Source: a virus
Reading direction: 5' to 3' (one strand)
Virus record (IMG/VR): IMGVR_UViG_3300030099_000154
Location: 1-36,668 of that record
Length of the DNA: 36,668 nt
In this document: piece by piece, positions 10,137-26,376 of the stretch
How positions within the stretch are numbered: the stretch's first letter is position 1
Layout: each line of letters begins with the position of its first letter
The notes under the pieces: model-generated
What the model saw: the letters and a program-made list of their open reading frames with translations, nothing else
Told to the model about the DNA's origin: nothing
Databases searched by the model: none
Program-made: the position numbers and the translations under genes

Positions 10137-10517
10137 ATGTACAACTATAAACGCAAGACAAACAAGTATGGTGCCAGAAAGACAACTTTCATGGGGATTA
10201 AGTTCGATTCCAAGTGGGAGGCAGAGCGTTGGGGCGAACTTACAGCTATGGAAAAGGCTGGTTACATAACAGACCTACAAAGACAAATCTCATATGAGAT
10301 CATAGTCAACGATCAAAAGATTTGTAAATATGTGGCTGACTTTCGTTACAATAAAGTAGATGAATACGGTAGTCTTGAAGAGGTTGTTGAAGATGCTAAG
10401 GGCGTGGAAACTGCTGAATTTAAACTCAAAAAGAAACTTATGAAAGCTGTTCACGGAATTGAGATTTACCTGTCTAAAAAAAATAATAACAATTTTCTCA
10501 AAATAAACTTGACATGA
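10137..10517 (+). CDS. DUF1064-type phage nuclease candidate (126 aa)
   Basis: The chosen start gives MYNYKRKTNKYGARKTTFMG. The body follows the DUF1064 phage family: GIKFDSKWEAERWGEL, then YITDLQRQISYEI, YVADFRYN and VVEDAKGVET with KLKKKLM. The pattern Glu (in WEAERW), Asp (in ADF) and Asp-x-Lys (in EDAKG) resembles the PD-(D/E)XK endonuclease core, related to resolvase-like enzymes of phages. A role in cutting branched or recombining DNA is therefore plausible but unproven. It lies divergent from the RHH regulator, just before the main early promoter. No strong ribosome site is visible, so an ATG 30 bases upstream (10107) cannot be excluded. Confidence 0.7.
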   Translation: MYNYKRKTNKYGARKTTFMGIKFDSKWEAERWGELTAMEKAGYITDLQRQISYEIIVNDQKICKYVADFRYNKVDEYGSLEEVVEDAKGVETAEFKLKKKLMKAVHGIEIYLSKKNNNNFLKINLT

Positions 10518-10537
10518 AAAGATTGCATGCCTATCTT
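10509..10537 (+). promoter_or_regulatory. Sigma70-like promoter P1 of the replication operon
   Basis: TTGACA at 10509-10514 and TATCTT at 10532-10537 are 17 bp apart. The -35 box is perfect and the -10 box matches 4 of 6. The spacer carries GATTGCATGC, which partly resembles the dyad of the other five promoters. It overlaps the end of the nuclease gene and sits about 40 bp before the first gene of the operon. Confidence 0.75.
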
Positions 10538-10538
10538 C

Positions 10539-10562
10539 CAGTTATGTTTAGCGACATAACTG
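10539..10562. promoter_or_regulatory. 9-bp perfect inverted repeat at the P1 start site
   Basis: CAGTTATGT (10539-10547) and ACATAACTG (10554-10562) are perfect arms with a 6-base loop. The repeat covers the expected transcription start of P1 and ends right before the ribosome site GAAGGAGAAGG. It could be an operator for a dimeric repressor or a 5' mRNA hairpin. No T-run follows, so it is not a terminator. Confidence 0.6.
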
Positions 10563-10574
10563 AAGGAGAAGGCG

Positions 10575-11006
10575 ATGAACGCTATTAATCTAAATAATGA
10601 TTTGACTGCTTTGTTTGAAAAGCGTGAGGATCTTAAATCTCAAATAAACGATCTTCAAAAGTCATTGAAGATTGTCAACAAAACTTTACAAAATCAGTTT
10701 GAAGAAACTGCACAAATGCAGCTTGCACAGCAGGGCAAAGACTTTGGTCAGACCACCATGAACGATGGTGACTTCAAAGTTACTGTTGATTTCAAGAAGC
10801 GTGTCATTTGGGATGAGGCTATTTTGTTGCGTGTGTTGGGTGCAATGGATGATGAGACTGCAAGGCATCTTGCTACTGTTAAGTACAGTGTAGCAGAAGC
10901 TAAGTTTCAGAACGCCACACCAGATATCAAGGCAGCATTATCAGAGGCTCGTACTGTAGAATTACAGAGCGTGTCAGTAGACCTTAAAAGAACGGAGGGC
11001 AAATAA
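10575..11006 (+). CDS. Coiled-coil early hypothetical protein (143 aa)
   Basis: First gene after promoter P1, with a strong ribosome site (GAAGGAG). Residues about 15-50 look like a coiled coil (EKREDLKSQINDLQKSLKIV, then NKTLQNQFEE). They are followed by a mixed region (DGDFKVTVDFKKRVIWDEAILLR) and a helical tail. Position and shape recall Gp157-like or exonuclease-associated helper proteins that precede phage recombination ATPases, but I could not confirm a family. Its stop overlaps the next start (TAATG). Likely an early recombination or replication helper by context. Confidence 0.72.
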   Translation: MNAINLNNDLTALFEKREDLKSQINDLQKSLKIVNKTLQNQFEETAQMQLAQQGKDFGQTTMNDGDFKVTVDFKKRVIWDEAILLRVLGAMDDETARHLATVKYSVAEAKFQNATPDIKAALSEARTVELQSVSVDLKRTEGK

Positions 11007-11245
11007 TGAAATGGATTTCTATTGAAGATCGTATGCCAGATAAAGATAAATCGGTGGAGTACAAAGCTACTGTAATGAAAGACCATCCTTCTGAGACCGT
11101 CATCCAAGGTGTTGGAAAGTTTGTCGGCTGTTATGTCGATGATGAAGGCGAAGAGTGGGAGGACATGCATATTTTTGTCAATGATCAGCACGGTGGCTTT
11201 CTAACTGGTGATGTTGAATTTTGGAGGGAGATTGAAAATGCTTAA
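11006..11245 (+). CDS. DUF551-like small early protein (79 aa)
   Basis: A 79-residue acidic protein starting in a TAATG overlap. It opens with KWISIEDRMPDKDKSVEYKA and ends with DVEFWREIEN. This frame of WIS-x-EDR-x-P at the N-terminus and a tryptophan-containing strand near the C-terminus is typical of the DUF551 family of small phage and prophage proteins. Their function is unknown. No catalytic motif is visible. Its end overlaps the ATPase gene by 8 bp, so it is co-translated with it. Confidence 0.72.
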   Translation: MKWISIEDRMPDKDKSVEYKATVMKDHPSETVIQGVGKFVGCYVDDEGEEWEDMHIFVNDQHGGFLTGDVEFWREIENA

Positions 11246-12104
11246 AATAATTAGCGCAGAAGAAAGGCTTGCCGAAAAGCGCGGTCACAAAATTGTGATT
11301 GGTGGGCCTTCAGGGGTGGGCAAGACAAGTCTTGTCCGCACCCTTGACATGGAGAAAACTCTCTTCATGGACTTGGAGGCTGGAGATGCCGCTATTGAAG
11401 GTTGCAAAGTAGATGTGATTAGGCCGCGCACATGGCCTGAGTGCAGAGACTTTGCATGCTTTTTAGGTGGGGGCAACCCTGCATTAAATGAGGACTCACC
11501 GTATAGCATGGCACATTACGAATATGTGTGTCAGACTTATGGTGATCCAGAAAAGCTGTTGAGCAAATACGATACGATTTTTATCGATAGTATTACTGTA
11601 GCTGGTCGGCTTTGCTTTTCGTATAATCAAAATCAACCAGAGGCTAGATCTGATCGAACAGGTAAGTTAGACACTCGTGCAGTTTATGGCGCTCAAGGTC
11701 GTGAGATGATGCAATGGTTAACACACCTTCAACATATTCGTGAGAAGAACGTAATTTTTGTCGGCATTTTAGACGAAAAGACCGATGACTATGGACGCAT
11801 CACTTACGACTTGCAGATCGAAGGTGCAAAGACTGGGCGTGAGTTGCCGGGGATCGTTGATGAACTAATCACAATGACAACGCTGACTGCTGACGATGGC
11901 ACTAAATTTAGAGCCTTTGTCTGTGACACACTAAACCAGTGGGGTTATCCTGCCAAAGACAGAAGCGGCAGACTTGACGCTGTTGAAGAGCCGCATCTTA
12001 ATAAGTTGTTTGAAAAAATGTCTGGCCCTAGACCAGAGGCCATGAACTTTGTAAATCCAAAAACGGTCAATAATAAAACAGAAGAGGAAAACGTAGATGC
12101 TTGA
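11238..12104 (+). CDS. Sak4-like RecA-fold recombination ATPase (288 aa)
   Basis: A P-loop ATPase with Walker A GGPSGVGKTS (residues 22-31, K29) and Walker B IFIDS (D117). It has the short RecA-core layout of phage Sak4 / AAA_24 proteins, which assist single-strand annealing and recombination-dependent replication. The ATG at 11238 follows GGAGGG at good distance; upstream codons overlap the previous gene and add no conserved sequence. The tail (NKTEEENVDA) is acidic. It overlaps the DUF669 gene by 8 bp; the Sak4, DUF669, helicase, nuclease order is a familiar phage recombination cluster. Sak4 and plain AAA_24 cannot be separated by eye. Confidence 0.85.
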   Translation: MLKIISAEERLAEKRGHKIVIGGPSGVGKTSLVRTLDMEKTLFMDLEAGDAAIEGCKVDVIRPRTWPECRDFACFLGGGNPALNEDSPYSMAHYEYVCQTYGDPEKLLSKYDTIFIDSITVAGRLCFSYNQNQPEARSDRTGKLDTRAVYGAQGREMMQWLTHLQHIREKNVIFVGILDEKTDDYGRITYDLQIEGAKTGRELPGIVDELITMTTLTADDGTKFRAFVCDTLNQWGYPAKDRSGRLDAVEEPHLNKLFEKMSGPRPEAMNFVNPKTVNNKTEEENVDA

Positions 12105-12729
12105 CCTAAATAACGTGCCGCCAATGGAAGGCGGAAGTGGAGACTTTGAACTTATCCCTGATGGAACTATTGTTAGTGCTATCATCAAACTGGAAGGTGG
12201 TGACACTGAAATTCCTGAATATGGTGCTGGTAAATACTTTAAGCAGTCTCAAACCACTAGCGCAAAATGGTTGCCAATTGAGCTAACTGTCGTGGGTGGC
12301 AACTTTGACAAGCGCAAAGTTTGGCAGAACATCTTTGTTGATGGTGATGCCAAGGACGAAAATGGTATGTCTAAGGCTAGAAAGATTGGCTTGAACACTA
12401 TCAAGCAGATGGTTGATAGTGGTTTTGGTATATCTCCAAAAGACGAAAGCGAGAACGCTAGAGCTAAACGTGCATCCATCCAAGGTATTGATATGATCAA
12501 TGGTATGACAATATGTTGCAGTTTAGGAATAGAAAAAGGCAATAATGGGTATGCTGATCGTAACAAGATCAAAACGGTCTTGACACCAGACTCGCCTAAT
12601 TATATTCAGAACACAGGACAGACTGCACCTGTCGCGCAAGCGCCAGTTGCACAAGCACCAGTGGCTCAGTCTCCTGCACCGCAACCAAGTACGGCAACAG
12701 CGGGGGTAGCACCATCATGGGCGCGATAA
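12097..12729 (+). CDS. DUF669-type protein, probable ssDNA-binding partner of the ATPase (210 aa)
   Basis: The N-terminus and core (MLDLNNVPPMEGGSGDFELI, then GTIVSAIIKLEGGD and KWLPIELTVVGG) match the DUF669 pattern. DUF669 proteins are commonly encoded beside Sak4-like ATPases and are thought to bind single-stranded DNA as an SSB-like partner. The body is beta-rich with Lys and Asn. The C-terminal 45 residues form a flexible linker with four copies of a PVAQ-type repeat and end in APSWAR, rather than the acidic tip of typical SSBs. It overlaps the next gene by 13 bp. The SSB role is inferred from family context. Confidence 0.8.
   Translation: MLDLNNVPPMEGGSGDFELIPDGTIVSAIIKLEGGDTEIPEYGAGKYFKQSQTTSAKWLPIELTVVGGNFDKRKVWQNIFVDGDAKDENGMSKARKIGLNTIKQMVDSGFGISPKDESENARAKRASIQGIDMINGMTICCSLGIEKGNNGYADRNKIKTVLTPDSPNYIQNTGQTAPVAQAPVAQAPVAQSPAPQPSTATAGVAPSWAR
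12625..12684 (+). repeat. Four 15-bp repeats encoding APVAQ
   Basis: Four in-frame 15-bp units encode APVAQ, APVAQ, APVAQ and SPAPQ in the flexible tail of the DUF669 protein. The third bases differ between copies, so the repeat is kept at protein level rather than being a fresh slippage product. Confidence 0.75.
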
Positions 12730-13046: not shown

Positions 13047-13050
13047 TCTG

Positions 13051-15666: not shown

Positions 15667-15711
15667 ACCGCCCCTAGTTAAAAACAATTATGCTTGACGA
15701 GGTACAATATA

Positions 15712-17871
15712 ATGAGTGTGGTGAGGTTTGGCAATACTACATCTAGTAGTAATATAGTTGAGGAGATCTCTCAAAGGGTTCCAAAGAGCGAACAAATTCG
15801 CATTTTGCAGGACACCTTCCCTGCGGGGCGTGTTCATGGCAAAACATTTTATATTGGATCTTTGCTTGGTGATCCGGGTCAATCATTAAAAATTAATATT
15901 GATCCTTCATCTCCACATTTCATGCAGGGCCAGGATTTTAATGGCGGCGTTGGAATTGGCGGTATTGTTAAAATATTGATGGAAGCTCGTGGCATGAAGC
16001 TTCCAGAGATAAAGGAGATGTTTGCCAGCTACCTCGACAATACTGGTCCTGCAATTGTTCGTGATAATGCTTCAATAGAAAATCCTATTAGGACGCAGTA
16101 TAACGCCAACTCGCCATACGATGCAGAATATGTGTACACTAACGCTGATGGTGAGGTGCTTGTCACAGTCCGTAGGTACAATGTAAAGGATATTGCTGGC
16201 AATCCTATGCTCAACACCAAGGGCAAGCCAAAGAAAGAGTTCAGGCCGTTTGTCGAAGGCTCACCATATTCTAAATTTCCAGACATTAGACCCTTATATA
16301 ACATACCAAACATCATAGCATCTGACCGTGTCGTATGGGTTGAAGGTGAAAAATGTGCTGATGCTCTTAATCGTGCTGGATATACTGCAACTTGTACAAT
16401 TGGTGGGGCCGGGGCGCTAACAAAGAAAACTGCACCACAGTTTGATTTTTCTCCATTACAGAATAAAGAGCTTATTCTTTGGCCTGATAATGATACGGGC
16501 GGCAAAAAACTAGCTGATCTTATTCAAGACTTGGCTTTGGCTGCTGGAGCTAAATCGGTCACGATGCTAACACCGCCAATGGGTAAGCCCGAAGGGTGGG
16601 ATGCCGCTGATGCTTTATCTGAGGGTTACAACATTGAGGAGTTTGTTAATACCAAAGCCAAGATAACCAAGACAAATATTAACCTTCTTGATGATTCATT
16701 TCTTGTCAGTCGGTTTGCTGGAGCCGCACCAGAGCAAAAGTTCTTAATTGATGGCACGTTTCCGTTAGGTGTGCCGATCTTATTTGCTGCTGCTGGCGAT
16801 GCTGGCAAAGGCATGATGACTCTGGACATGGGTATGAAAGTAGCATCGGGAAAGCCCATGATTAATGCGTTTGGCGGCTTGGTCAAAGAGTTTGGCAACG
16901 TAGTTATCTTCACGGCGGAAGATGACGAAGCTGAGATGCACAGGCGAGTTGAGCGACTTGATCCATTTGAGGAGCGGCGTGGTTATCCGCATGATTTAAA
17001 GATTGTATCGCTTCCAAACGTGGGTGGTGTATTTGCAATCATGAATGAGTCTAACGGCGAGTTCGGCACAACGGCAGAATTTGAAAAGATTTACGAACAA
17101 ATCTTGCAGATGAGTAACTTAAAGCTGATTGTGTTTGATCCGCTGGCATCTTTTGTTCATGCGGATGTCAACGCTGATCCGGCGGCTGGTGCTGCTTTAA
17201 CAGGTTTGTTGGCTAGGATGGCAACAGAAACAGGTGCATCTGTATTGGTTTGTCACCACATGACCAAGATCAAGGACGATGCAGTGGTTAAAACACCAGA
17301 ACAAGCTCGTAACCTGATTAGGGGTACAACGGCTTTGGTCGATGGTGTCAGGTCTTCATTTGCCATGTGGCAGGTTGATACCGCTCGTGGCAAAAAAACA
17401 TGTGAACGGTTGGGTTTACCATATCAACGCAATAGCTGTTTTGATGGCGCTGTGGTCAAATCTAACGGGCCAGCCAGTAGAAATGTTCGGCATTTTGTCC
17501 GGGATCCGATGACTGGGCTGCTAAATGATCGCACTGAAGAAATAAAGTCACTTAGCAGTGGCACGATGCTTGAAATGAAACTGGATGCCATGGTTGATTG
17601 GATTATTCACTGTGAACGTGAAGGTGTTGGATTAACGCACATGAGTGGCAATAACGGGGTTTATAAGCGTTCAGAGGATGCTGACGCTCCTGAGATATTG
17701 CGGGGGATTGGTAAGCAGACGTTGGAAGGATATGTTCGCACATTACAACAAGATGGTCGAATTGATAAGTTTCAATTGACTGCAACGGGCGGCAGGGTAT
17801 GGCTTGGAGGCATTGATGGTCCTATGAGTCGAGGCGAGTATGAAGCAGTGACGGCGAGAGATAATGTCTAG
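15712..17871 (+). CDS. Primase-helicase: TOPRIM plus RepA-like AAA ATPase (719 aa)
   Basis: A fused replication protein. An N-terminal part (INIDPSSPHFMQGQDFNGG, then GIGGIVKILMEARG) resembles a primase head, but zinc-binding cysteines are absent. The TOPRIM core shows WVEGEKCADAL (E211) and LWPDNDTGGKK (D259, D261), for metal-dependent primer synthesis. The helicase domain has a P-loop AAAGDAGKGM (K366), FTAEDDE, and Walker B LIVFDPL (D476), followed by VLVCHHMTK, as in RepA-type hexameric helicases. A winged-helix-like tail closes the protein. The ATG at 15712 has GAGG nine bases upstream. No polymerase follows it, so it may load the host enzyme. It overlaps the methyltransferase by 8 bp. 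Confidence 0.88.
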   Translation: MSVVRFGNTTSSSNIVEEISQRVPKSEQIRILQDTFPAGRVHGKTFYIGSLLGDPGQSLKINIDPSSPHFMQGQDFNGGVGIGGIVKILMEARGMKLPEIKEMFASYLDNTGPAIVRDNASIENPIRTQYNANSPYDAEYVYTNADGEVLVTVRRYNVKDIAGNPMLNTKGKPKKEFRPFVEGSPYSKFPDIRPLYNIPNIIASDRVVWVEGEKCADALNRAGYTATCTIGGAGALTKKTAPQFDFSPLQNKELILWPDNDTGGKKLADLIQDLALAAGAKSVTMLTPPMGKPEGWDAADALSEGYNIEEFVNTKAKITKTNINLLDDSFLVSRFAGAAPEQKFLIDGTFPLGVPILFAAAGDAGKGMMTLDMGMKVASGKPMINAFGGLVKEFGNVVIFTAEDDEAEMHRRVERLDPFEERRGYPHDLKIVSLPNVGGVFAIMNESNGEFGTTAEFEKIYEQILQMSNLKLIVFDPLASFVHADVNADPAAGAALTGLLARMATETGASVLVCHHMTKIKDDAVVKTPEQARNLIRGTTALVDGVRSSFAMWQVDTARGKKTCERLGLPYQRNSCFDGAVVKSNGPASRNVRHFVRDPMTGLLNDRTEEIKSLSSGTMLEMKLDAMVDWIIHCEREGVGLTHMSGNNGVYKRSEDADAPEILRGIGKQTLEGYVRTLQQDGRIDKFQLTATGGRVWLGGIDGPMSRGEYEAVTARDNV

Positions 17872-18373
17872 ACAAAAAGATGATTTTTATCCAACGCCTC
17901 TGGTAGCTATCGAATCGTTATTAGACAACGAAAACTTTGATGGTGACATTTGGGAGCCAGCTTGCGGTAATGGCGCTATTTCTGAGCCAGCATCTGCATA
18001 CAATAATGTCATCAGCACAGACTTAAATGATTATGGTTACGGCGATTCGGGCATAGACTTTTTAATGGAGTCTAAACTGCTTGCGCCAAACATAGTTACT
18101 AACCCGCCATATAAGTTAGCTCAAAAGTTTATAGAGAAAGCCATAGAGCTTGGCGCAAAGAAACATTGCTGGTTATTGCGCTTGTCATTCTTGGAGGGCC
18201 AGCAACGCCGTGTCTCTCTTTTTGATAAACATCGTCCATCCAGAGTTTGGGTGTTCTCTCAAAGGCTGACAATATGGCGCGGTGATGAAGAGCCAAACGG
18301 TAGCGGCACTACTGCTTACGGTTGGTTTGTATGGGAAGGCAACGCAACAGAAACAAGGATTGATTGGATATGA
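17864..18373 (+). CDS. N6-adenine DNA methyltransferase (169 aa)
   Basis: A small SAM-dependent DNA adenine methyltransferase of the phage type. The N-terminus has DFYPTP (residues 7-12), then motif I EPACGNGAIS (31-40) for SAM binding, and NPPY (80-83) as the catalytic motif. TDLNDYGYGD lies between them, where the acidic SAM-ribose contact is expected. At 169 residues it is short for a full enzyme with target recognition, so specificity may be loose or depend on partners. No restriction enzyme gene is visible nearby. Likely roles are protection from host restriction or marking of replication or packaging sites. It overlaps both neighbours. Confidence 0.87.
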   Translation: MSRQKDDFYPTPLVAIESLLDNENFDGDIWEPACGNGAISEPASAYNNVISTDLNDYGYGDSGIDFLMESKLLAPNIVTNPPYKLAQKFIEKAIELGAKKHCWLLRLSFLEGQQRRVSLFDKHRPSRVWVFSQRLTIWRGDEEPNGSGTTAYGWFVWEGNATETRIDWI

Positions 18374-18636
18374 AAAGAGCAGAGGTGCTGGACACAGCAA
18401 AGAAGTATGTGACTAAAGATAAAGCAGCAGAACACGGCGCGATGGAGGATAATTTTAAAACTATCGCTTATTACTGGTCAGGTCATCTGGGTATCGAAAT
18501 CAGCCCGGCAGATGTAGGTGTAATGATGAGTCTGCTGAAAATTGCTCGTATAAAGAGTAACCCGGCGCATGAAGATAATTACATTGATGGCTGTGGTTAT
18601 CTCGCATGTGCGGCAGAGTGCGAAAAAGATATTTAA
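18370..18636 (+). CDS. DUF6378-type phage protein (88 aa)
   Basis: The ATG at 18370 overlaps the methyltransferase stop (ATGA). The sequence fits the DUF6378 family of phage proteins: AAEHGAMEDNFKTIAYYW, then GIEISPADVGVMMSLLKIAR and AHEDNYIDGCGYLACAAE. The conserved His, Asp and Asn (HEDNYID) and the all-helical pattern recall MazG-like or dUTPase-like nucleotide-binding folds, but a reaction is not established. It is the last gene before the next promoter. Possibly involved in nucleotide metabolism; this is inference. Confidence 0.8.
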   Translation: MKRAEVLDTAKKYVTKDKAAEHGAMEDNFKTIAYYWSGHLGIEISPADVGVMMSLLKIARIKSNPAHEDNYIDGCGYLACAAECEKDI

Positions 18637-18656
18637 TTTTTTCTTTATCTTTATGC

Positions 18657-18685
18657 TTGACTTTATGCAAACATTGCTATATACT
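18657..18685 (+). promoter_or_regulatory. Promoter P2 with dyad spacer, upstream of SprT-like gene
   Basis: TTGACT (18657-18662) and TATACT (18680-18685) are exactly 17 bp apart, each matching 5 of 6 bases. The spacer contains TGCAAACATTGC (18666-18677), a near-dyad shared with P3-P6. The leader ends with a strong AAGGAGGG ribosome site. This gap is the end of the long replication operon. Confidence 0.82.
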
Positions 18686-18718
18686 GTATTTATGAGATGA
18701 AAACCAAAGGAGGGTTTT

Positions 18719-19228
18719 ATGGGTTTTTCAAAATCACAAGTGCAGAACAAGCGCGGTAAAAACGTCAAGCCAGATGAGCATAAGCTTGTCGTTAAAATGG
18801 CTTTGTCTTGTTTGCGTGAATTGGCAAAAGCTGAATATGAATTGCCTAAATTCAATGGCAAGATCACAGTTCAAACTAAATGTCGTGGTCAACGATCTTA
18901 TGGCGGCGCAACAGGAATTAGCATTGATGTCAGTCGCTTTAGAAAGGGCGACGTTTTCCTTAACGAATATAAATCCTATCAACAGTGCAAGGTCATTGGT
19001 TCAGCGAAGTGTGACAGTCCCGAAACTAGATTGCTTGGCACTGTGGCACATGAGATTGCACATCATGTTCAACGCAAGTATTTACCTCAAAGTAGATTAA
19101 AAAATGTTTGTCAAAGATCACATGGCGATGGCTTCAAAATTATTTACGGTTATTTACGCCGCGCTTTAATTAACGATTTTGTTAAGCATACTGGTGTTCA
19201 GAATTGGACAATGGCTAGAGCGGCATAA
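18719..19228 (+). CDS. SprT-like zinc metalloprotease (169 aa)
   Basis: A SprT/Spartan-type domain protein. The zinc site is seen as HEIAHH (H111, E112, H115) and a third ligand in SHGDGFK (H135). Family members bind zinc; eukaryotic Spartan cleaves DNA-protein crosslinks, while bacterial SprT is poorly characterised. The N-terminus is basic (KSQVQNKRGKNVK), suitable for nucleic acid contact. The length is normal for a single SprT domain, and no C-terminal zinc ribbon is seen. It has its own promoter (P2) and a strong ribosome site, so it is likely an early gene expressed on its own. A target such as host DNA-bound proteins is inference. Confidence 0.85.
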   Translation: MGFSKSQVQNKRGKNVKPDEHKLVVKMALSCLRELAKAEYELPKFNGKITVQTKCRGQRSYGGATGISIDVSRFRKGDVFLNEYKSYQQCKVIGSAKCDSPETRLLGTVAHEIAHHVQRKYLPQSRLKNVCQRSHGDGFKIIYGYLRRALINDFVKHTGVQNWTMARAA

Positions 19229-19255
19229 GCCCCTTTACTTTTTTTATTTTTTTTG

Positions 19256-19284
19256 TTGACAAGTATGCAATCACTTCTTATATC
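19256..19284 (+). promoter_or_regulatory. Promoter P3 with dyad-like spacer
   Basis: TTGACA (19256-19261) and TATATC (19279-19284) are 17 bp apart. The spacer carries TGCAATCACTTC (19266-19277), which keeps the left half of the dyad found in P4 and P5. A long T-run (about 19239-19254) lies immediately before it and may act as a weak terminator of the protease unit. The leader carries GGAGGG before the start at 19316. Confidence 0.78.
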
Positions 19285-19315
19285 TGTTATCAGCGACTAT
19301 CAATGGAGGGTAAAA

Positions 19316-19576
19316 ATGAGTAACGATCAAACAACGGAAAAATATGTAATCGTATTCGATACCATGTGTGACGGCTGGCAAGCCGTGATGGACAGTAAAG
19401 ATAATCCTGTCTTGTTTGATTCCAAAGAAGAGGCAGAAAAAGAAATAATGGATGATTTTCAGGAACTCCAACGCAATCAGATCGAGTCTGATATGGAGCC
19501 TGACGAGGAACCAGATGAGTTCGCAATTCCACTGTCAGAATATACACAAGGTCGTAAGGTGATATTCAATGGGTAG
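19316..19576 (+). CDS. Acidic early hypothetical protein (86 aa)
   Basis: First gene after promoter P3. The ATG at 19316 follows GGAGGG; the upstream in-frame ATG at 19253 lies inside the promoter and is rejected. The protein is very acidic (EEAEKEIMDDFQELQ, then ESDMEPDEEPDEF) with a short beta-like head (KYVIVFDTMCDGWQAVMD). Small acidic phage early proteins can act as DNA mimics or bind host enzymes, but no family is recognised, so that is only a possibility. It overlaps the next gene by 8 bp. Confidence 0.75.
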   Translation: MSNDQTTEKYVIVFDTMCDGWQAVMDSKDNPVLFDSKEEAEKEIMDDFQELQRNQIESDMEPDEEPDEFAIPLSEYTQGRKVIFNG

Positions 19577-19751
19577 ATTAACAGATTATCTGGAAGCACA
19601 GGCGTTGCTTAATCAAACGATCAACGCTGTGCATGAACTGGTTACTAGCGATGCCACCGAAGCCGAAGTTGAGTTGTTGCTTGGCGCTGCTGGTGGATTG
19701 CAAGAAGCACAGTCAATGTTAATTAAGGCAAGATTGAGGGTGGAACAATGA
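19569..19751 (+). CDS. Small helical hypothetical protein (60 aa)
   Basis: A 60-residue all-helical protein (LEAQALLNQTINAVHELV, then LLLGAAGGLQEAQSMLIKA) that starts inside the end of the previous gene and ends in an ATGA overlap with the next. No conserved catalytic residues or cysteines are visible. Its place in a tightly coupled operon supports it being translated. Function unknown. Confidence 0.68.
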   Translation: MGRLTDYLEAQALLNQTINAVHELVTSDATEAEVELLLGAAGGLQEAQSMLIKARLRVEQ

Positions 19752-20134
19752 AAATGCCAAAATATGAAAAGAATTGCTACACATTATCAGTGGCAATGAC
19801 ATGCGGCAGCGATGGTTATTCTAAGTTAAACAAGCTGGATGAGTCTTTTGTAGGAACGAATAGCTACATGGGAATAGCTTATTTTTGGGACCATGAAGTT
19901 AAGCATACCATGCGAGATATGACACCAAAGTTTCGTAAGATCATTCACGATGCTTTGATCTTAAATGACATACAGCCAAAGAATGATGGGTTTGGCGGCA
20001 AGTATTTTGAAACAACAGATGATGTTTACAGAATTATAAATGCTGTTTTGAAAAAGTATAAGCCAACAGATTGGGAGTATTATTCATTCCGTGAGCCTTT
20101 CTATTATCACTATAGGAAGGTGTCCAATGGCTAA
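19748..20134 (+). CDS. Hypothetical protein (128 aa), Tyr/Lys-rich
   Basis: A 128-residue protein starting in an ATGA overlap, with GAGGGTGG upstream; the ATG six bases downstream is an alternative. It is rich in Tyr, Lys, Asp and Phe, with a C-terminal aromatic segment (DWEYYSFREPFYYHYRK). There are single cysteines only and no membrane segment. The last 8 bases overlap the 451-aa gene. Its N-terminal phrase (SVAMTCGSDGYSK) did not match a family I know. Function unknown. Confidence 0.7.
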   Translation: MKMPKYEKNCYTLSVAMTCGSDGYSKLNKLDESFVGTNSYMGIAYFWDHEVKHTMRDMTPKFRKIIHDALILNDIQPKNDGFGGKYFETTDDVYRIINAVLKKYKPTDWEYYSFREPFYYHYRKVSNG

Positions 20135-21482
20135 AAAGAAAGGAAGCAGTGGACAACACGGCACTAGGATGAGCATGAACAGGTATCTCAAAAAGAATGA
20201 CCAAGAACGCTCAAAGCATATGGCAAAAGGCGTATCACTTGATATCAATTATCACGATATTTTTAAAGATCCAAGCTGGGATGGCGTTGAACGTATGGCT
20301 GATAATATGAAAAAGCGCAAATTGGGCAGGGATAGTCAGGGGGTTCGTTACTGGGAGGATAACGGACCTACCCTGTCCAATACCCTGTTAGCGGCTCTTG
20401 CAGAGCCAAGGAGGGGCATTTCTGGGTATGATGGTGGCAAGTATGCCGAAGCCATGAGGCGGAATGTACAATCGCAAATTGCCACAGCGCAAAAGTTCGT
20501 TGTCAGCAATAGCATGGTTGAACATGCTTATCTTGCGTCCATGGCTAGGCCAACGCATTTAATTCAAATGTTACAGCGTGGCATCCCACCATTTAACAAT
20601 ATGTGGATTGAGTGGGATGAGGATTTTCGCAGGGATATTGTAATCCGCGAAATGGATAAGTTAGGCATTGATGCTCGTGATAATGAGAAATTCGTTGAAA
20701 GCATGAGGACAACGGCTCGTGTTGGCTATCACATTCAAATGGTTAACGATAGATTCATGTATACCAATTACTTTCACTCTCATGAGGTCGAAAAATTGTA
20801 TTCATCACCATTAGCGTTTCACATGTCTAATGATGGTATGATTCGTAACAATGATCCTAATCAAGATCATGATGCGTTCTTGACAGATGTTACTATCACA
20901 AGCACTTGTTTGCTTGGTAATTGGTATAAAGAAAAATACCTTCCTGAGAGTGTAGATAAAAATAACCCTTTGTCTGATCATGATATGAGCATGGGAGTTT
21001 TGCTTGGTTCTTTCGCGCAAATGCAAAGTTCATCCATGCACTGGTTAGCGCCGCAACAAAAGTTTGCACAGGGATTTACACATAAAGAAATGGCAGATAT
21101 GAAAGCCTTGTCATTAACGTCACAAGCTGGTGATGGGCGGTTTCTAATTGCGCTGTTAGGTTTGCTTAACTATGACCTTGTTGTTCATGAAACAACAACA
21201 CCGCCAAAGAAGATTGACCATGTGCGGTTTGGGCGTGTGGTTCCAAAGAACGAGTACAAGGTGGTGACAATTCAGTTACCCAAGCCGCGTGGCAAGCGCA
21301 TCTATGAGCAGATGTTCACAGGGCATGGTAGCCCCAAGAAGGAGCATTGGCGGCGTGGACATTGGCGCACACTGAAGGACAAGTTTGGCAGGATTAAGAA
21401 GCGTGTGTGGATTAGTGAGATGAAAGTGGGCAACCCAGAGTTGGGTACTATCGTTCATGATTATAAACTGGAGGGCAAGTGA
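20127..21482 (+). CDS. Large conserved hypothetical phage protein (451 aa)
   Basis: The ATG at 20127 follows GGAAGG at good distance; the upstream ATG at 20091 is inside the previous gene. The N-terminus is basic (MAKKKGSSGQHGTRMSMNRY). The middle is helical and aromatic with many Met and His residues (MARPTHLIQMLQRGIPPF, PPFNNMWIEWDEDFRRD). The C-terminus carries a basic RRGHWR motif followed by GRIKKRVWISEM. The same RRGHxR and VW words occur at the N-terminus of the small protein at 22120. No nuclease, polymerase or ATPase motif was found. It may be a nucleic acid or protein-modifying early protein, but this is not shown. Confidence 0.72.
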   Translation: MAKKKGSSGQHGTRMSMNRYLKKNDQERSKHMAKGVSLDINYHDIFKDPSWDGVERMADNMKKRKLGRDSQGVRYWEDNGPTLSNTLLAALAEPRRGISGYDGGKYAEAMRRNVQSQIATAQKFVVSNSMVEHAYLASMARPTHLIQMLQRGIPPFNNMWIEWDEDFRRDIVIREMDKLGIDARDNEKFVESMRTTARVGYHIQMVNDRFMYTNYFHSHEVEKLYSSPLAFHMSNDGMIRNNDPNQDHDAFLTDVTITSTCLLGNWYKEKYLPESVDKNNPLSDHDMSMGVLLGSFAQMQSSSMHWLAPQQKFAQGFTHKEMADMKALSLTSQAGDGRFLIALLGLLNYDLVVHETTTPPKKIDHVRFGRVVPKNEYKVVTIQLPKPRGKRIYEQMFTGHGSPKKEHWRRGHWRTLKDKFGRIKKRVWISEMKVGNPELGTIVHDYKLEGK

Positions 21483-22120
21483 TGAGCGGATTTGAAGCTT
21501 TGCAACAAGTCAAAGACGATATGATGCGTCCAATCTACGAAAAGCGGCGGCATTTGGGATGCGAGTTTTGTGGAACAACTTTTTACGGTTACTACCAAAA
21601 GACCGGGAGAAGCGGTGTTCCTAATGGCAAAGAGTCACCGCATCCCAAAAAAAAGGGATGGATTGTATGTCATACACATGATGATGTTTTTTACCCTAAC
21701 TGTCCCGAATGTTTTGGTCCTTTCGGAGTAAGAGATGCAAAAGAGGCATTAGCTGTGCGTGAACATGAACAGGAGCAAAGGCGCAAGAATAAAGCGGCTG
21801 CTGAAAAACGTAAGGCAACAATAGAACGCAAAAGACAAGAATATTGGGATAGAGTTAAACATGTTAGAGCAAACCCGCATGACGCAACGTCAGAAGAGTT
21901 GCGAGACTTTAATTTTATTCAGTCTCTTTTAGGCATGCCATATTGGAGTGGGTATGAAAATAGAGAGAAGCCTTGTTGGGAACAAGGGCAGAATGGTCGT
22001 TATGAGGTAAAATTTAATTATGTTTCTAAAGGCCATAGCAGATCAGGAAAGACACATTACACTAGAGAGTGGTTTGATATTACTGATATAGACACAGGCA
22101 AAAGCTGGAAGGTAGGGTGA
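21482..22120 (+). CDS. Zinc-finger-like hypothetical protein (212 aa)
   Basis: A 212-residue protein starting in a TGATG overlap after GGAGGG. Cysteines and histidines cluster: C27-x2-C30, then C63-H64-x-H66 and C74-x2-C77, a likely zinc site. A charged coiled coil follows (EHEQEQRRKNKAAAEKRKAT, then IERKRQEYWDRV). The C-terminal part is polar and Trp-rich (YTREWFDITDIDTGKSW). The combination of a zinc finger and coiled coil suggests DNA or RNA binding or protein scaffolding. No family recognised. The next gene begins at its stop. Confidence 0.72.
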   Translation: MSGFEALQQVKDDMMRPIYEKRRHLGCEFCGTTFYGYYQKTGRSGVPNGKESPHPKKKGWIVCHTHDDVFYPNCPECFGPFGVRDAKEALAVREHEQEQRRKNKAAAEKRKATIERKRQEYWDRVKHVRANPHDATSEELRDFNFIQSLLGMPYWSGYENREKPCWEQGQNGRYEVKFNYVSKGHSRSGKTHYTREWFDITDIDTGKSWKVG

Positions 22121-22401
22121 TGACAACATATCAAAGACGAGGACATTTTCGTATGCAAAATGGCAATAGGGTTTGGGTTAACTCAACGGTTTGTGAAAAA
22201 AGAAAATCTAGTCAGGAGGCTACAATGGGATTTAAAACAGGAAACTACATGACTGGTATTGGGTTTTTACTTGTGCTGCTGATGTCAGCAGTCGAGCCTA
22301 TGCCGCATAGCTTTGAATTGTTCTGGTTACATGTCGGAACGCTGATGATCGGAGCAGTTCTGATGGGTTCTGGAGCATACCTTACATGGAAAGGAAAATA
22401 G
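22120..22401 (+). CDS. Two-TM small membrane protein with basic RRGHFR head; possible holin (93 aa, or 58 aa from internal start)
   Basis: Reading from ATG 22120 gives 93 residues with a basic head (YQRRGHFRMQNGNRVWV) and two hydrophobic segments (MTGIGFLLVLLMSAV and LHVGTLMIGAVLMGSGAYL) with a charged end. An internal ATG at 22225 follows a perfect AGGAGG and gives a 58-residue two-TM product without the head. Both products may be made, as in holin/antiholin dual starts. The size and membrane pattern fit a class II-type holin to release the soluble lysozyme, but it lies in the early-promoter region, far from the lysozyme, so holin function is a guess. Confidence 0.62.
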   Translation: MTTYQRRGHFRMQNGNRVWVNSTVCEKRKSSQEATMGFKTGNYMTGIGFLLVLLMSAVEPMPHSFELFWLHVGTLMIGAVLMGSGAYLTWKGK

Positions 22402-22402
22402 G

Positions 22403-22618
22403 ATGAAGGTACCTACAATAGAAGAAATTAAGGATGCTCTTAGATTGGTGAGTGACAATCCATTGTACAAACAAAGGATCAGCCGTGAAAAAGCCAAAGA
22501 ACAGGGATTAAAAACATTTTTTACTGGTAATGCCTGTTTACATGGACATGTTTCAGATCGCCTGGTTTCAAACGGCAATTGCGTAGATTGTTATTATGTT
22601 AATGGTGAGTGTTCTTGA
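22403..22618 (+). CDS. Small zinc-binding protein, CxHGH...CxxC (71 aa)
   Basis: A 71-residue protein, one base after the membrane gene. Its C-terminal part has the pattern C45-x-H47-G-H49 and C60-x2-C63 (ACLHGHVSDRLVSNGNCVDC). This pattern occurs at the zinc site of several phage small proteins and some HNH-type proteins; the catalytic part of HNH is not visible here. The N-terminal half is a helix (TIEEIKDALRLVSDNP). Probably binds zinc and a nucleic acid or partner protein. Last gene of the P3 operon. Confidence 0.7.
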   Translation: MKVPTIEEIKDALRLVSDNPLYKQRISREKAKEQGLKTFFTGNACLHGHVSDRLVSNGNCVDCYYVNGECS

Positions 22619-22628
22619 TACGTTCTTG

Positions 22629-22656
22629 TTTGGGTTTAGAAGTTTAGAAACCCAAA
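22629..22656. repeat. 9-bp inverted repeat TTTGGGTTT / AAACCCAAA
   Basis: TTTGGGTTT (22629-22637) and AAACCCAAA (22648-22656) form a perfect 9-bp inverted repeat with a 10-base loop. The same TTTGGGTTT word recurs at 22713-22721 and 22787-22795. The 281-bp stretch 22619-22899 holds no convincing gene and is unusually rich in such repeats. Confidence 0.7.
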
Positions 22657-22799
22657 GTTGGTACCCCAAAGTTCATAAAGTTGTTATTTATCAATGGGTT
22701 AAGAGGTTTTGGTTTGGGTTTGCAATGATAGCACAAACAAAGCAAAATAGGGGTCGTAAGTTATTGAAAAGGCTCAAAGTTTAAGGTTTGGGTTTTTTA

Positions 22800-22840
22800 C
22801 CCTATTACATAGGGGTATAGGTATAAACAAACCTATACCC
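22800..22840. promoter_or_regulatory. Two mutually exclusive hairpins upstream of the small terminase gene
   Basis: CCCTAT (22800-22805) pairs with ATAGGG (22809-22814). GGGTATAGGT (22813-22822) pairs perfectly with ACCTATACCC (22831-22840) around an 8-base loop. The two stems share bases 22813-22814, so they exclude each other. No T-run follows, so neither is an intrinsic terminator. Being directly upstream of the small terminase gene they may be part of a packaging site, an attenuator or an RNA control element. Confidence 0.65.
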
Positions 22841-22899
22841 TGTAACGTGTGGTTGCTGCACCAGTAACCAGAAGAATTGTTCTACTTAGGAGGGGCGTA

Positions 22900-23427
22900 A
22901 TGCCGAATGTCGGAGAAGATCTACCAAAGGAACAGCGTCTTGCTGGACACAAAAGATTAACACCACAGCAGCAACAGTTTCTGGATATGTATCTGCACAA
23001 GGATATGACACAGACTGAAGCGGCTCGTCAGGCAGGGTACAAAAACCCCACAGTGCAAGCTGTACGGCTGTTGCGTAACCCAGTTGTAGCGGAACGCCTA
23101 CAGGAGATGAGACTGGAGACACAGGCCAGATTTGGCGTAACAATCGATAAGTCTATTCGTGACCTAAAGAAGATTCGGGATCAGGCGTGGGAAATGGGCA
23201 AATTTAGCGATGCGTTGAGGGCAGAGGAGCTACGTTTAAAGGCAGCGGGACTACTAATCAACAAGCAGCACGTTGTTAAAGAGGAGATCACAGCGAATAC
23301 AAAACAAGATATTGCTAATAAATTGGCTGAGTATAAGCGTTTGGCTGAGTCGCGTATGAGAAACGTAACACCAGATATGGACATAATAGAACATGAACCA
23401 CAAGATATAGTTAAAGATAGCGCATAG
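22900..23427 (+). CDS. terS: Terminase small subunit (175 aa)
   Basis: Recognises the packaging site and hands DNA to the large subunit. The chosen ATG at 22900 follows a perfect AGGAGG; an upstream GTG frame to 22849 is rejected because it covers the hairpin region. The N-terminal part is a terminase_2-type helix-turn-helix: LTPQQQQFLDMYLHKDMTQ, then TEAARQAGYKNPTVQAV and LLRNPVVAERL (HTH about residues 36-60). A long helical oligomerisation region follows (KFSDALRAEELRLKAAGLLI) and the tail is acidic. It lies 5.4 kb upstream of the large subunit, an unusual separation. The HTH and family assignment are by eye. Confidence 0.85.
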   Translation: MPNVGEDLPKEQRLAGHKRLTPQQQQFLDMYLHKDMTQTEAARQAGYKNPTVQAVRLLRNPVVAERLQEMRLETQARFGVTIDKSIRDLKKIRDQAWEMGKFSDALRAEELRLKAAGLLINKQHVVKEEITANTKQDIANKLAEYKRLAESRMRNVTPDMDIIEHEPQDIVKDSA

Positions 23428-23475
23428 CCCAGATATTCCCATAAAACACTCCGCGCGGGGGTAGGAGACGTTGAC

Positions 23476-23566
23476 CTTCGGGCTTTAGGGGGTCTGAATC
23501 GAGATGGGGGCTTCGGGATCGGGCTTTTTCGGGGTTCGGGCTTGACATCTGATCGGGTTCGGGGTC
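23476..23566 (+). repeat. G-rich CTTCGGG tract A
   Basis: A G-rich, non-coding tract between the small terminase gene and a terminator, with several TTCGGG words (first at 23476-23482, last at 23559-23564) and GGGGG runs. Its segment 23508-23529 recurs with one mismatch at 24040-24061 in tract B. It is compositionally unlike its AT-rich neighbours. The 293-bp gap 23428-23720 holds this tract, an 8-bp CCGCGCGG palindrome (23451-23458), a terminator and promoter P4, but no gene. Confidence 0.72.
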
Positions 23567-23594
23567 ATCCTGAAGGCTCCTCCCTTAGAGAACT

Positions 23595-23638
23595 GCCCCA
23601 GTAGCCGCCTAAAGCTGCTGGGGCTTTTTATTTTTTTT
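23595..23638 (+). terminator. Strong intrinsic terminator after tract A
   Basis: GCCCCAGTAGC (23595-23605) pairs with GCTGCTGGGGC (23614-23624) with one G-U pair and an 8-base loop, followed by a long T-rich run (23625-23638). It should stop transcription coming from the small terminase unit just before promoter P4. Confidence 0.88.
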
Positions 23639-23659
23639 GTTTTTTTGTTTTTTTTCTTG

Positions 23660-23689
23660 TTGACTAAGTGTTGCAATGATTGCTATATA
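23660..23689 (+). promoter_or_regulatory. Promoter P4 with perfect GCAAT-G-ATTGC dyad
   Basis: TTGACT (23660-23665) and TATATA (23684-23689) are 18 bp apart. The spacer has TGCAATGATTGC (23672-23683), in which GCAAT and ATTGC form a perfect dyad around one base. This would let a dimeric regulator block RNA polymerase. It lies right after the terminator and upstream of a small gene with GGAGGG. Confidence 0.83.
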
Positions 23690-23720
23690 TAATAAGTAAG
23701 TTAAACAGGAGGGCAAAACA

Positions 23721-23975
23721 ATGCATAACATTACAGAACACACTGGCAAGTTAAGACTCATAAAAAGATTAAAAAATTCTATCAACGGGAATCCTCGTTT
23801 TGAATTAGCAATTATGGATGATCCGGAGCGAGGTTTAGGCTGGACCTTTAAAACTGGGGTTGATAGCGCACATGGTTATGAAGTGCAAAACTACATGGAT
23901 CGTGATGTTGACGTTACTGTTACTATCGGGACACATTATGGGAGTGCAACATTGAATAGTATCTGTCGGGCTTAG
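23721..23975 (+). CDS. Small conserved phage protein, NGNPRFEL type (84 aa)
   Basis: An 84-residue protein behind promoter P4 with a good ribosome site (GGAGGG). Its layout, KLRLIKRLKNSINGNPRFEL, then GWTFKTGVDSAHGYEVQNYM and a beta-rich DVTVTIGTHYGSATL, matches a common type of small phage protein (S-x-NGNPR-x-E motif, then a DSA-x-GYE-x-N motif) of unknown function, probably a small beta barrel. It stands alone between two promoters and stops just before the G-rich tract B, so its mRNA would carry that tract as its 3' end. Function unknown. Confidence 0.75.
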   Translation: MHNITEHTGKLRLIKRLKNSINGNPRFELAIMDDPERGLGWTFKTGVDSAHGYEVQNYMDRDVDVTVTIGTHYGSATLNSICRA

Positions 23976-23982
23976 ATTCTTC

Positions 23983-24061
23983 GGGCTTCGGGGTCTTCGG
24001 GGTCTTCGGGGTCTTCGGGGTCTTCGGGCTTCGGGCTTCGGGCTTCGGGGTCGGGCTTTTT
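23983..24061 (+). repeat. G-rich CTTCGGG tract B with G-quadruplex motif
   Basis: Ten G-runs start at 23983, 23990, 23999, 24008, 24017, 24026, 24033, 24040, 24047 and 24053. Most are separated by CTTC or TCTTC. Positions 23990-24020 are four GGGG runs with identical 5-base loops, a strong G-quadruplex motif in both the non-template DNA strand and the mRNA. The array lies right after the stop codon at 23975 and ends in a T-run. The 241 bases to 24216 hold this array, an AT-rich stretch and promoter P5, and no gene. Confidence 0.9.
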
Positions 24062-24152
24062 GCTGCCCCACCATTTGGACTTTACATTTTGGTTTTAACC
24101 ATATTTTGTTTTTTTTGAGCGAAAAAAAATCAAAATAAACATCATATTAAGC

Positions 24153-24181
24153 TTGATATGATGCAATGATTGCTATATAAA
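24153..24181 (+). promoter_or_regulatory. Promoter P5 with perfect GCAAT-G-ATTGC dyad
   Basis: TTGATA (24153-24158) and TATAAA (24176-24181) are 17 bp apart. The spacer has TGCAATGATTGC (24162-24173), identical to that of P4. The start of RNA would be near 24188, so the in-frame ATG at 24187 is unlikely to be used; 24217 is preferred. Confidence 0.85.
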
Positions 24182-24216
24182 TAAGTATGTTCAATTATAT
24201 GAAAAGGTATAAATCA

Positions 24217-24441
24217 ATGTCAAATAAAGTAAAAATGATCGTTCGTCGTATTCCTAAGAAAACTGTTCAAAACATATTGAGGGATATTAGACAAAGCGTT
24301 TGGAATCTTAATATAGAAAAAGATTCATTCGGTTATAAAGTCACCACTAAAAACGGGACTCTTGTATTTCAAGCGATGAATGGCACTCGTGACTATTTAA
24401 CTCGTTGGCATCCAAAACTATTAGCAGCATTTAACGGTTAA
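24217..24441 (+). CDS. Small basic hypothetical protein (74 aa)
   Basis: A 74-residue basic protein (MSNKVKMIVRRIPKKTVQN, then LRDIRQSVWNLNIEKDSF) with a C-terminal part of aromatic and polar residues (YLTRWHPKLLAAF). I chose ATG 24217 because 24187 coincides with the expected transcription start; ATG 24199 is a less likely choice. It has an AAAGG upstream. No domain recognised. It is a monocistronic gene between promoter P5 and a hairpin, so it may be an early takeover protein acting on host nucleic acid; this is speculation. Confidence 0.68.
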   Translation: MSNKVKMIVRRIPKKTVQNILRDIRQSVWNLNIEKDSFGYKVTTKNGTLVFQAMNGTRDYLTRWHPKLLAAFNG

Positions 24442-24446
24442 TCATA

Positions 24447-24470
24447 ATGGGGCGCAAAATTGCGCCCCAT
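24447..24470. repeat. 11-bp perfect hairpin ATGGGGCGCAA / TTGCGCCCCAT
   Basis: Arms 24447-24457 and 24460-24470 pair perfectly with a two-base centre; as RNA the core is GGGGCGC / GCGCCCC with an A/T-rich loop. No T-run follows. It sits six bases after a stop codon and 28 bases before the GP88 gene, so it could protect an upstream mRNA end, partly stop transcription, or bind a protein. Confidence 0.75.
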
Positions 24471-24497
24471 ATCCAAACTTAATTGAGGGGCAATATT

Positions 24498-25265
24498 ATG
24501 AAACCATTATCTAAAACTGAAATGGCTGTTTTAGCTGGCAAATCTGTCTATCATAAGTTGCGCGTTAAATCCGTATCGGATGGCATGGCAAAGTCTGAGC
24601 GTGCTATTAAGAAAAGCACAAATGTAAAACTTGGCAAGCGCGTTACCAAAGGCAAGTTAAAAGGCTTTCCGATTTTTACGTTGACATTAGAAGAACGCGC
24701 AACATGTCCCCGCTCTTGTATTCATTGGGGCGATTGCTATGGCAATAATATGATGAATGCGACTCGTTATAAGGGTGATCAAGCTTTATTAGATCAAATT
24801 GAATCAGACTTGGCATTTTATCAATCCAAATATCCAAATGGGTTTCTTGTTCGCTTGCATATACTAGGCGATTTTTATTCCGTTGCGTATGTAGCGCAAT
24901 GGGCAAAATGGCTTGGCATGTTCCCGGCGCTATTCATTTATGGTTATAGCGCGAATCAATATGATGCTATCGACTCCAATGAACGCGCAATAGGGCAAGC
25001 TTTGTTATCTTTGCGCATGGCTTGCGGTATACGCTTTGCTATTAGATTCAGTGGATCATATACGGATGAATTCGCAGCGCTATCTAATGATGATAATCGT
25101 AGCAATGATTTGTTAGCTGATAAACAAGCTTTTCTTTGCCCTACTCAAATCAGCAAAGAAACTGGAAAGCTTGCAAAGAAAGATGAAGAGACTCTTGTAC
25201 CGGATTGCGGCGCTTGTGGTTTATGCTGGCAAGCTTCCAAGCCCGTTGTATTTTTGACACACTAA
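24498..25265 (+). CDS. GP88-type cysteine-rich phage protein, radical-SAM-like candidate (255 aa)
   Basis: The ATG at 24498 follows GAGGGG. The protein resembles the GP88 family (gene product 88 of mycobacteriophages): FPIFTLTLEERATCPRSC, then IHWGDCYGNNM, RLHILGDFYSVAYVAQW and a C-terminal DCGACGLCW. Seven cysteines fall in two sets: C70, C74 and C80 near the middle, then C214, C237, C240 and C243 at the end. The second set resembles an Fe-S or zinc cluster. The first spacing (C-x3-C-x5-C) differs from the classic radical SAM C-x3-C-x2-C, so enzymatic activity is uncertain. It lies between a hairpin and a small ORF, under promoter P5. Confidence 0.78.
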   Translation: MKPLSKTEMAVLAGKSVYHKLRVKSVSDGMAKSERAIKKSTNVKLGKRVTKGKLKGFPIFTLTLEERATCPRSCIHWGDCYGNNMMNATRYKGDQALLDQIESDLAFYQSKYPNGFLVRLHILGDFYSVAYVAQWAKWLGMFPALFIYGYSANQYDAIDSNERAIGQALLSLRMACGIRFAIRFSGSYTDEFAALSNDDNRSNDLLADKQAFLCPTQISKETGKLAKKDEETLVPDCGACGLCWQASKPVVFLTH

Positions 25266-25280
25266 CAGAAAGGCAAGCCA

Positions 25281-25397
25281 ATGTATGTATATAAAAACAA
25301 ATCCGGGGATATCGTAAAATTTATCAAGCCAGTGTCTAGAAAGTCGCAAAAGATGCTAGGCTTCAAAAACATACCGCAAAAGAGAAAAACAAAATAA
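25281..25397 (+). CDS. Small basic ORF downstream of GP88-like gene (38 aa)
   Basis: A 38-residue ORF with a GAAAGGC ribosome-like site, ending just before the strong terminator at 25422. It is basic and polar (MYVYKNKSGDIVKFIKPV, ending KRKTK). The sequence has no frame breaks, and the next feature is a terminator, so it is probably the last gene of the P5 transcript. It may help the GP88-like protein or bind nucleic acid. No homologue is known to me. Confidence 0.6.
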   Translation: MYVYKNKSGDIVKFIKPVSRKSQKMLGFKNIPQKRKTK

Positions 25398-25421
25398 CAG
25401 CAAAACAAAAACAAAACTACG

Positions 25422-25446
25422 ACCCGGCAAGCGCCGGGTTTTTTTT
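25422..25446 (+). terminator. Strong intrinsic terminator ACCCGGC-GCCGGGT-T8
   Basis: ACCCGGC (25422-25428) and GCCGGGT (25433-25439) pair perfectly around AAGC, followed by eight T residues. It ends the transcript carrying the GP88-like gene. Confidence 0.92.
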
Positions 25447-25617
25447 CGCTTATGTTTTACAAGGTACCCTATAGATATTTGGTAAAATTTGAATCGGGAT
25501 CCGGGCGGGTATGGCACCACCCGCAAAACAAAACTTGACAGCGCAACACCTTGCGCCAAGTTTCCCACAAACAACCTCCAAAAAATTTTAAAAAAAAATT
25601 TTACATCATTTTTTTGC
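25447..25617. other. Structured non-coding stretch, possible origin or packaging region
   Basis: No gene is seen in the 171 bases. GCGGGT (25505-25510) pairs with ACCCGC (25519-25524). CTTG plus GCGCAA (25534-25546, with an ACA bulge) pairs with TTGCGC plus CAAG (25551-25560). An A/T-only stretch (about 25580-25602) with AAAATTTT elements follows. Hairpins next to an AT-rich stretch are typical of replication origins; nothing here proves that. Confidence 0.5.
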
Positions 25618-25646
25618 TTGACTTCTTGCAATCTTTGCATTAGAAT
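25618..25646 (+). promoter_or_regulatory. Promoter P6 with dyad-like spacer
   Basis: TTGACT (25618-25623) and TAGAAT (25641-25646) are 17 bp apart, each matching 5 of 6. The spacer has TGCAATCTTTGC (25627-25638), related to the P4 and P5 dyad. It drives the genes at 25676 and 26003. Confidence 0.82.
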
Positions 25647-25675
25647 CTAATTATAGATAAAAGAAAGGGCAAACC

Positions 25676-25999: not shown

Positions 26000-26002
26000 G
26001 TG

Positions 26003-26368: not shown

Positions 26369-26376
26369 TAATCTAT

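Follow-up and report, generated by a model that had tools for sequence, protein, structure and literature searches.

A dyad operator shared by dispersed promoters of a marine phage and its predicted reader, a phage-encoded XRE regulator

Introduction

Several promoters of one marine phage carry a similar palindromic element between their -35 and -10 hexamers, which raises the question of what this element is and which protein, if any, reads it. The window analyzed here is the entire virus record IMGVR_UViG_3300030099_000154 (36,668 nucleotides, or 36.7 kb, with a G+C content of 43%). A preliminary description of its sequence listed six promoters, P1 to P6, five of which share a TGCAAT-N-ATTGC element in the spacer, and proposed that a repressor at this element would block several early operons together, with an XRE and a ribbon-helix-helix (RHH) protein of the same genome as the regulators to be considered.

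The terminase of this phage shares at most 63% identity with those of named phages, the nearest being DSL-LC04, 023Pt_psg01 and the pelagiphages HTVC027P and HTVC023P, whereas the terL of the nearest virus contig (G001, locus L009, 56 kb) is ~99.6% identical by tblastn. The single DNA match among known phages is a 403-base stretch of Roseobacter phage CRP-114 at 72% identity, located away from the promoters. Three relatives on short contigs, with a terL identity of 71–77%, were binned with Hellea, Maricaulis and Rhodobacteraceae metagenome-assembled genomes (MAGs), which hints at an alphaproteobacterial host, at no finer level. The PF00589 integrase had no match in 16 contigs of the group, the 55- and 56-kb ones included, nor did the PF00239 serine recombinase in nine contigs; this suggests that the phage and its relatives, as represented by possibly partial contigs, are lytic. 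The relative HTVC027P lacks an RNA polymerase of its own and uses the host enzyme all through infection, and all of its early genes are of unknown function (PMC12753301).

Results

Six promoters carry a common dyad element

All six -35 hexamers were found where the preliminary description had placed them, and the spacers are mostly 17 bp as described, with P4 as the single 18-bp case (Table 1). The TTGACN-type -35 holds for P1 to P4 and P6, but not for P5, which has TTGATA. Compared to TGCAATNATTGC, P4 and P5 have no mismatch, P2 and P6 have one each and thus keep most of both halves, and P3 has two but retains the left half, as had been noted. P1 had been assigned a shifted ATTGC, but an entire degenerate element is present there (TGAAAAGATTGC, offset 6, GAAA-AGA-TTGC), with two mismatches to TGCAATNATTGC. 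Similarly, the proposed start of the element 9–12 bases past the -35 start applies to P2 to P6 (9, 10, 12, 9 and 9, respectively), whereas in P1 it starts at 6.

The degenerate element of P1 is retained in the two closest relatives, and the P1 spacer is identical in G001 and G002. At the same position, G010 has the canonical GCAATCATTGC and G026 has GCAA-AAGA-CTTC, whereas the dyad is absent from G003, G012 and G025. P3 has a counterpart in G025 with the near-identical spacer GTATGCAATGACTTCTTATAT.

Taken singly, the parts of this arrangement occur no more often than by chance. The 12-mer alone, allowing up to three mismatches, was found 137 times against 175 expected, and pairs of -35 and -10 hexamers alone in 18000–26500 were found 19 times against 20.8 expected. 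By contrast, the -35, the element and the -10 together gave six sites, whereas 300 dinucleotide shuffles gave 0.08 on average and never more than one, indicating that it is the combination that is special. A search with the -35 and the element over the window and 80 related loci yielded 86 matches, and none in the reversed sequences. The six promoters are thus confirmed to carry a common dyad element, in degenerate form in P1.

Terminator-like hairpins lie directly upstream of P4 (23595–23624) and upstream of P6 (25421–25440), so that the units behind these two promoters look separate; P6 possibly also transcribes the packaging genes further downstream.

Several other features were observed around these promoters. 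Just past P5 and opposed to it, the minus strand of 24194–24223 holds a 12/12 sigma70 promoter-like match, TTGACA-18-TATAAT. In the intergenic stretch 23978–24058 between two dyad operons, a 9-bp unit TCTTCGGGG is repeated about nine times, with extra TCGGG copies at 23478–23559, and TTCGGG/TGTTCGGG motifs are dispersed in relatives as well. At about 25540–25600, 50–70 bp upstream of P6, a TTGAC is followed by a GC-rich inverted repeat GCGCAACACCTTGCGC and then by a TTCCCCACAAACAA-like stretch; this whole arrangement is conserved in both clades described below (L085:5164, L064:4231 and G009 5691) and are possibly a packaging-related site. In G008 (L055), a divergent pair of dyad promoters lies at 8461 (-) and 8494 (+), with the operator in both.

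Table 1. Coordinates of the promoters, their elements and the candidate regulators in the window
Feature	Position	Strand	Description
RHH-like protein	9913–10092	-	Small protein (MPDTTKFKSVGVDL...); disfavoured as reader of the dyad
P1	10509–10537	+	TTGACA-17-TATCTT; degenerate operator GAAAAGATTGC at 10516–10526; upstream of gene 10575–11006
P2	18657–18685	+	TTGACT-17-TATACT; operator GCAAACATTGC at 18667–18677; upstream of gene 18719–19228
P3	19256–19284	+	TTGACA-17-TATATC; half-degenerate operator GCAATCACTTC at 19267–19277; likely ATG of downstream gene at 19316
P4	23660–23689	+	TTGACT-18-TATATA; perfect operator GCAATGATTGC at 23673–23683; upstream of gene 23721–23975
P5	24153–24181	+	TTGATA-17-TATAAA; perfect operator GCAATGATTGC at 24163–24173; likely ATG of downstream gene at 24217
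P6	25618–25646	+	TTGACT-17-TAGAAT; operator GCAATCTTTGC at 25628–25638; predicted to drive the operon of the regulator itself
First gene of regulator operon	25676–25999	+	107 aa; no Pfam or NCBIfam match
XRE/HTH_3-type regulator	26003–26368	+	Proposed repressor at the dyad; predicted HTH fold, Aca2-like profile, kept in relatives
Codons of recognition helix and following loop	26114–26161	+	SHRMYCYYE and SGEQEIP, from alignment and model; vary with operator type

The dyad resembles an operator rather than a part of the promoter

In the relatives, the dyad core is not equally common in coding regions, being 11-fold denser between genes than within them. In the main clade GCAA-N3-TTGC occurs at 10.7 per 10 kb of intergenic sequence versus 0.97 of intragenic sequence, where 45 copies were counted, and seven control dyads had no comparable intergenic excess in the same clade. 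Among 54 non-redundant sites, which include a few chance matches, the -35 and -10 are mostly 17 bp apart, and the start of the 12-mer ranges from 7 to 12 bases past that of the -35; when the set is widened to 64 sites, the first G of the dyad falls at 8–13 and conservation ends abruptly at the edge of the 11-bp dyad. The inner positions, which the search pattern left free, are T in 77%, any base, and A in 64%, and some sites show paired substitutions, as in GCAAC-T-GTTGC; together these indicate that the dyad symmetry is maintained. An RNA hairpin was also considered and rejected by reasoning, as only 1–3 bases separate the arms and transcription from the promoter begins downstream of the site.

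The dyad could alternatively belong to the promoter itself, either as an extended -10 or as the binding site of an RNA polymerase modified by the phage. It adjoins the -10 in many promoters (ATTGC-TATATA), where the TGC ahead of TATA looks like an extended -10, and the relative G015 likely encodes a fusion of sigma region 4 and the alpha C-terminal domain behind a dyad promoter. However, the register of the dyad slides by several bases while the -35 and -10 stay fixed at about 17 bp, which points to a separate element, an operator and not a promoter part; moreover, both arms are conserved, and the dyad of the sister clade has a different inner gap. We therefore regard the dyad as very unlikely to be a promoter part. 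Intergenic enrichment and sliding register, together with the clade-wide exchange described below, give the proposed shared operator, read by one repressor that would block several operons together, good in silico support.

The operators of a sister clade changed together

The sister clade comprises phages with a terL identity of 77–80%, of which nine contigs were counted. No GCAA-N3-TTGC was found between genes in these nine contigs; instead, GAAA-N4-TTTC occurs at 4.6 per 10 kb between genes versus 0.56 within them, and is in turn absent between genes in the main clade. The promoter of the XRE operon and other promoters of the same sister-clade genomes carry GAAA-N4-TTTC or near forms; such promoters number three in G020, four in L085 and at least two in each of G021, G026 and G029. 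In each clade, the operator type is uniform across several promoters of one genome. As operators at several separate sites changed together, the change most simply lies in a single trans-acting protein.

Such a protein might be a transcription factor of the host, which would tie the promoters to the state of the cell, like CtrA in phages of Caulobacterales. A host regulator would likewise act on several promoters, the sister clade may use another host and so have its operator altered in all promoters at once, and CtrA control of phage genes has a published precedent (PMC9437464). Nevertheless, in most relatives an XRE gene sits behind its own operator, with a recognition region that differs with operator type, and the four nearest isolates, which lack XRE, also lack dyad promoters in the first 50 kb of each. 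A host factor is thus an unlikely reader.

A phage-encoded XRE regulator is the best candidate for the reader

The XRE gene is the second in the operon behind P6, near terL, and was found in every relative whose contig spans the locus; no homologue was found among 50,697 phage records. Two relatives score 25.9 and 25.8 for the HTH_3 domain against a cut-off of 23, whereas the XRE of the window is below the Pfam cut-off. In its AlphaFold model, the HTH helices have a pLDDT above 90, and the helical hairpin behind them is predicted with less certainty. The promoter of the XRE operon bears the operator in most relatives, and in some the dyad scan at this operon found none recognisable.

The predicted DNA-reading region of XRE varies with the inner gap of the operator. 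Genomes with N3 operators have a helix near S-x-R-M-Y-x-Y-Y-E and a loop (E/D/Q)-x-x-(I/V)-P, with K variants in two lineages, whereas those with N4 operators have a loop (H/Y/K)-T-x-(I/V/L)-(D/S). Two intermediates agree with this division: L186 combines the helix SHRQYCYYE and the loop GHTPID with the N4 site GAAA-CAGG-TTGC, and G007 combines the loop GENSIP with the N3 site GAAA-TCA-TTGC, suggesting that the type of the XRE loop goes with the inner gap. On the terL tree, N3/N4 and loop type change only once or twice, so that the covariation of XRE and operator taken alone is statistically weak, and operator type could instead follow some linked gene or a host switch.

Of the two regulators named in the preliminary description, XRE fits as the reader, but RHH does not track operator type. 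RHH proteins are classic phage repressors, and this one is conserved wherever contigs cover its region. However, its likely DNA-reading strand is similar in the window (FKSVGVDL, N3 operator) and G026 (YKSVGIDI, N4 operator), yet differs in G010 (VKSVSMGH) despite the N3 operator common to G010 and the window, and no dyad promoter was found upstream of its gene. RHH therefore has very little chance of being the repressor. From these comparisons, the XRE protein is most probably the reader of the shared spacer operator and the best explanation for it.

The genes behind the promoters are small and change rapidly

Among the relatives the promoters persist, but their downstream genes are exchanged. 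In G014, for example, the counterpart of P2 is a near-identical promoter with an unrelated gene behind, and the other contigs lack homologues of the genes immediately downstream of P2, P4 and P5. The 107-aa family at the first slot of the XRE operon (fam7) was found in the window, G014 and L160, whereas most relatives have an unrelated acidic family of ~80 aa there (fam0, n=30). Across the relatives, the first genes encode 148 distinct products in about 60 families, 137 of them with at most 150 aa. In 18 contigs, the small first products have a median pI of 4.8 and are confined to a single contig in 43% of cases, the corresponding values for other small ORFs being 7.8 and 18%. Family libraries (Pfam, NCBIfam and PHROGs) named almost none of the first products, and no anti-CRISPR was recognised among the partner genes. 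It is solely by analogy that a role in host takeover or anti-defence is proposed for the controlled genes.

In the G015 contig (L042/L187), the gene that normally leads the XRE operon is replaced, behind a dyad promoter at 16386 (oriented contig coordinates), by one for a 134-aa protein. The scanned set gave one match to sigma70 region 4 (E 3e-6) and one to the C-terminal domain of the RNA polymerase alpha subunit (E 1e-5), both of which this protein likely bears.

Discussion

We infer binding, dimer formation, repression, timing and the roles of the controlled genes along the following lines. The dyad GCAAT-N-ATTGC (core GCAA-N3-TTGC) would be the operator of the phage XRE protein, a dimer of which would bind inside the spacer of sigma70-type promoters served by the host RNA polymerase and, by analogy with Aca proteins, keep the polymerase away by occlusion. 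The promoters would be active on phage entry; XRE would then be made from P6 and silence P2 to P6, its own operon included, and P1 weakly. The outcome would be a pulse-type negative feedback across several dispersed operons of small accessory genes. Given the reliance of HTVC027P on the host polymerase and the analogy with Aca, an expression pulse terminated by XRE is plausible in these phages.

A protein bound in the spacer might instead activate, as MerR-type regulators do from dyads between the -35 and -10. However, MerR promoters have spacers of 19–20 bp that need untwisting, compared to the optimal 17 bp here, and the candidate regulator belongs to the HTH_3/XRE class and not to MerR, which makes activation highly improbable.

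Repression by XRE has its closest parallel in the Aca autorepressors, which recognise inverted repeats in the core promoter from which they are themselves expressed (PMC9410906, PMC8434428); ten Aca families have been surveyed (PMC9410906), an Aca structure is available (PMC8434428), and Aca2 is that of Pectobacterium phage ZF40. Like Aca, XRE is a small phage HTH protein encoded downstream of a small leading gene in the same operon, with an inverted repeat in the core promoter of that operon (P6 and its counterparts in relatives), and it is predicted to autorepress likewise by blocking RNA polymerase. The XRE profile matched Aca2 structures with E-values of 7e-5 to 2e-4 over residues 8–102 (hmmsearch), mostly in the HTH with a poor C-terminal alignment, and Foldseek comparison of the fold gave TM scores of 0.4–0.5 and a best E-value of 0.016, none below 0.001 and hence no confident full-length match. 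The arrangement would operate in the manner of an acr-aca operon, but membership in the Aca2 family is uncertain. Unlike Aca, which was tested on its own acr-aca promoter (PMC9410906, PMC8434428), the operator here occurs at about three to six promoters per genome, spread along much of its length, and no known anti-CRISPR gene was recognised upstream of XRE. Compared to Aca, one repressor would here reach several promoters instead of one.

Control of many sites by a single phage repressor, with motif and repressor varying together, is known from cluster A mycobacteriophages such as L5 and Bxb1 (PMC6550527). These phages are temperate or near-temperate, and their repressor keeps lysogeny through asymmetric stoperators that lie mostly outside promoters (PMC6550527). 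In contrast, the recognised sites here are symmetric, located in promoter spacers and 11-fold enriched between genes, and no integrase was found in the group.

The immunity repressors P2 C and P22 c2 belong to the same HTH fold class and gave distant phmmer and Foldseek matches; unlike them, XRE adjoins packaging genes and not an integrase, and no lysogeny genes were found. The antitoxin autorepressors MqsA and HigA also combine an XRE-fold HTH with short dyads, the inner gap being 3–4 bases in MqsA sites. A weak match to the MqsA antitoxin HMM, below the cut-off, was obtained for one relative, but no toxin partner was recognised here.

If the reading of XRE as the repressor is true, the operator would label those genes of the marine phages that are first turned on and then off again. 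The first-gene products would be a ready list for testing in host takeover and anti-defence, an approach already applied to archaeal viruses (PMC11065993), and the two clades with their intermediates would provide a natural series of repressor–operator pairs that differ in half-site and inner gap, suited to studies of how a regulator and its multiple sites change together. We tentatively suggest that in this widespread lytic marine clade an Aca-like repressor may serve as a global off-switch, that the dispersed operons may be slots for fast-changing takeover and anti-defence genes with the operator as their genome-wide flag, and that the repressor and its operators may have switched specificity together when the clade split.
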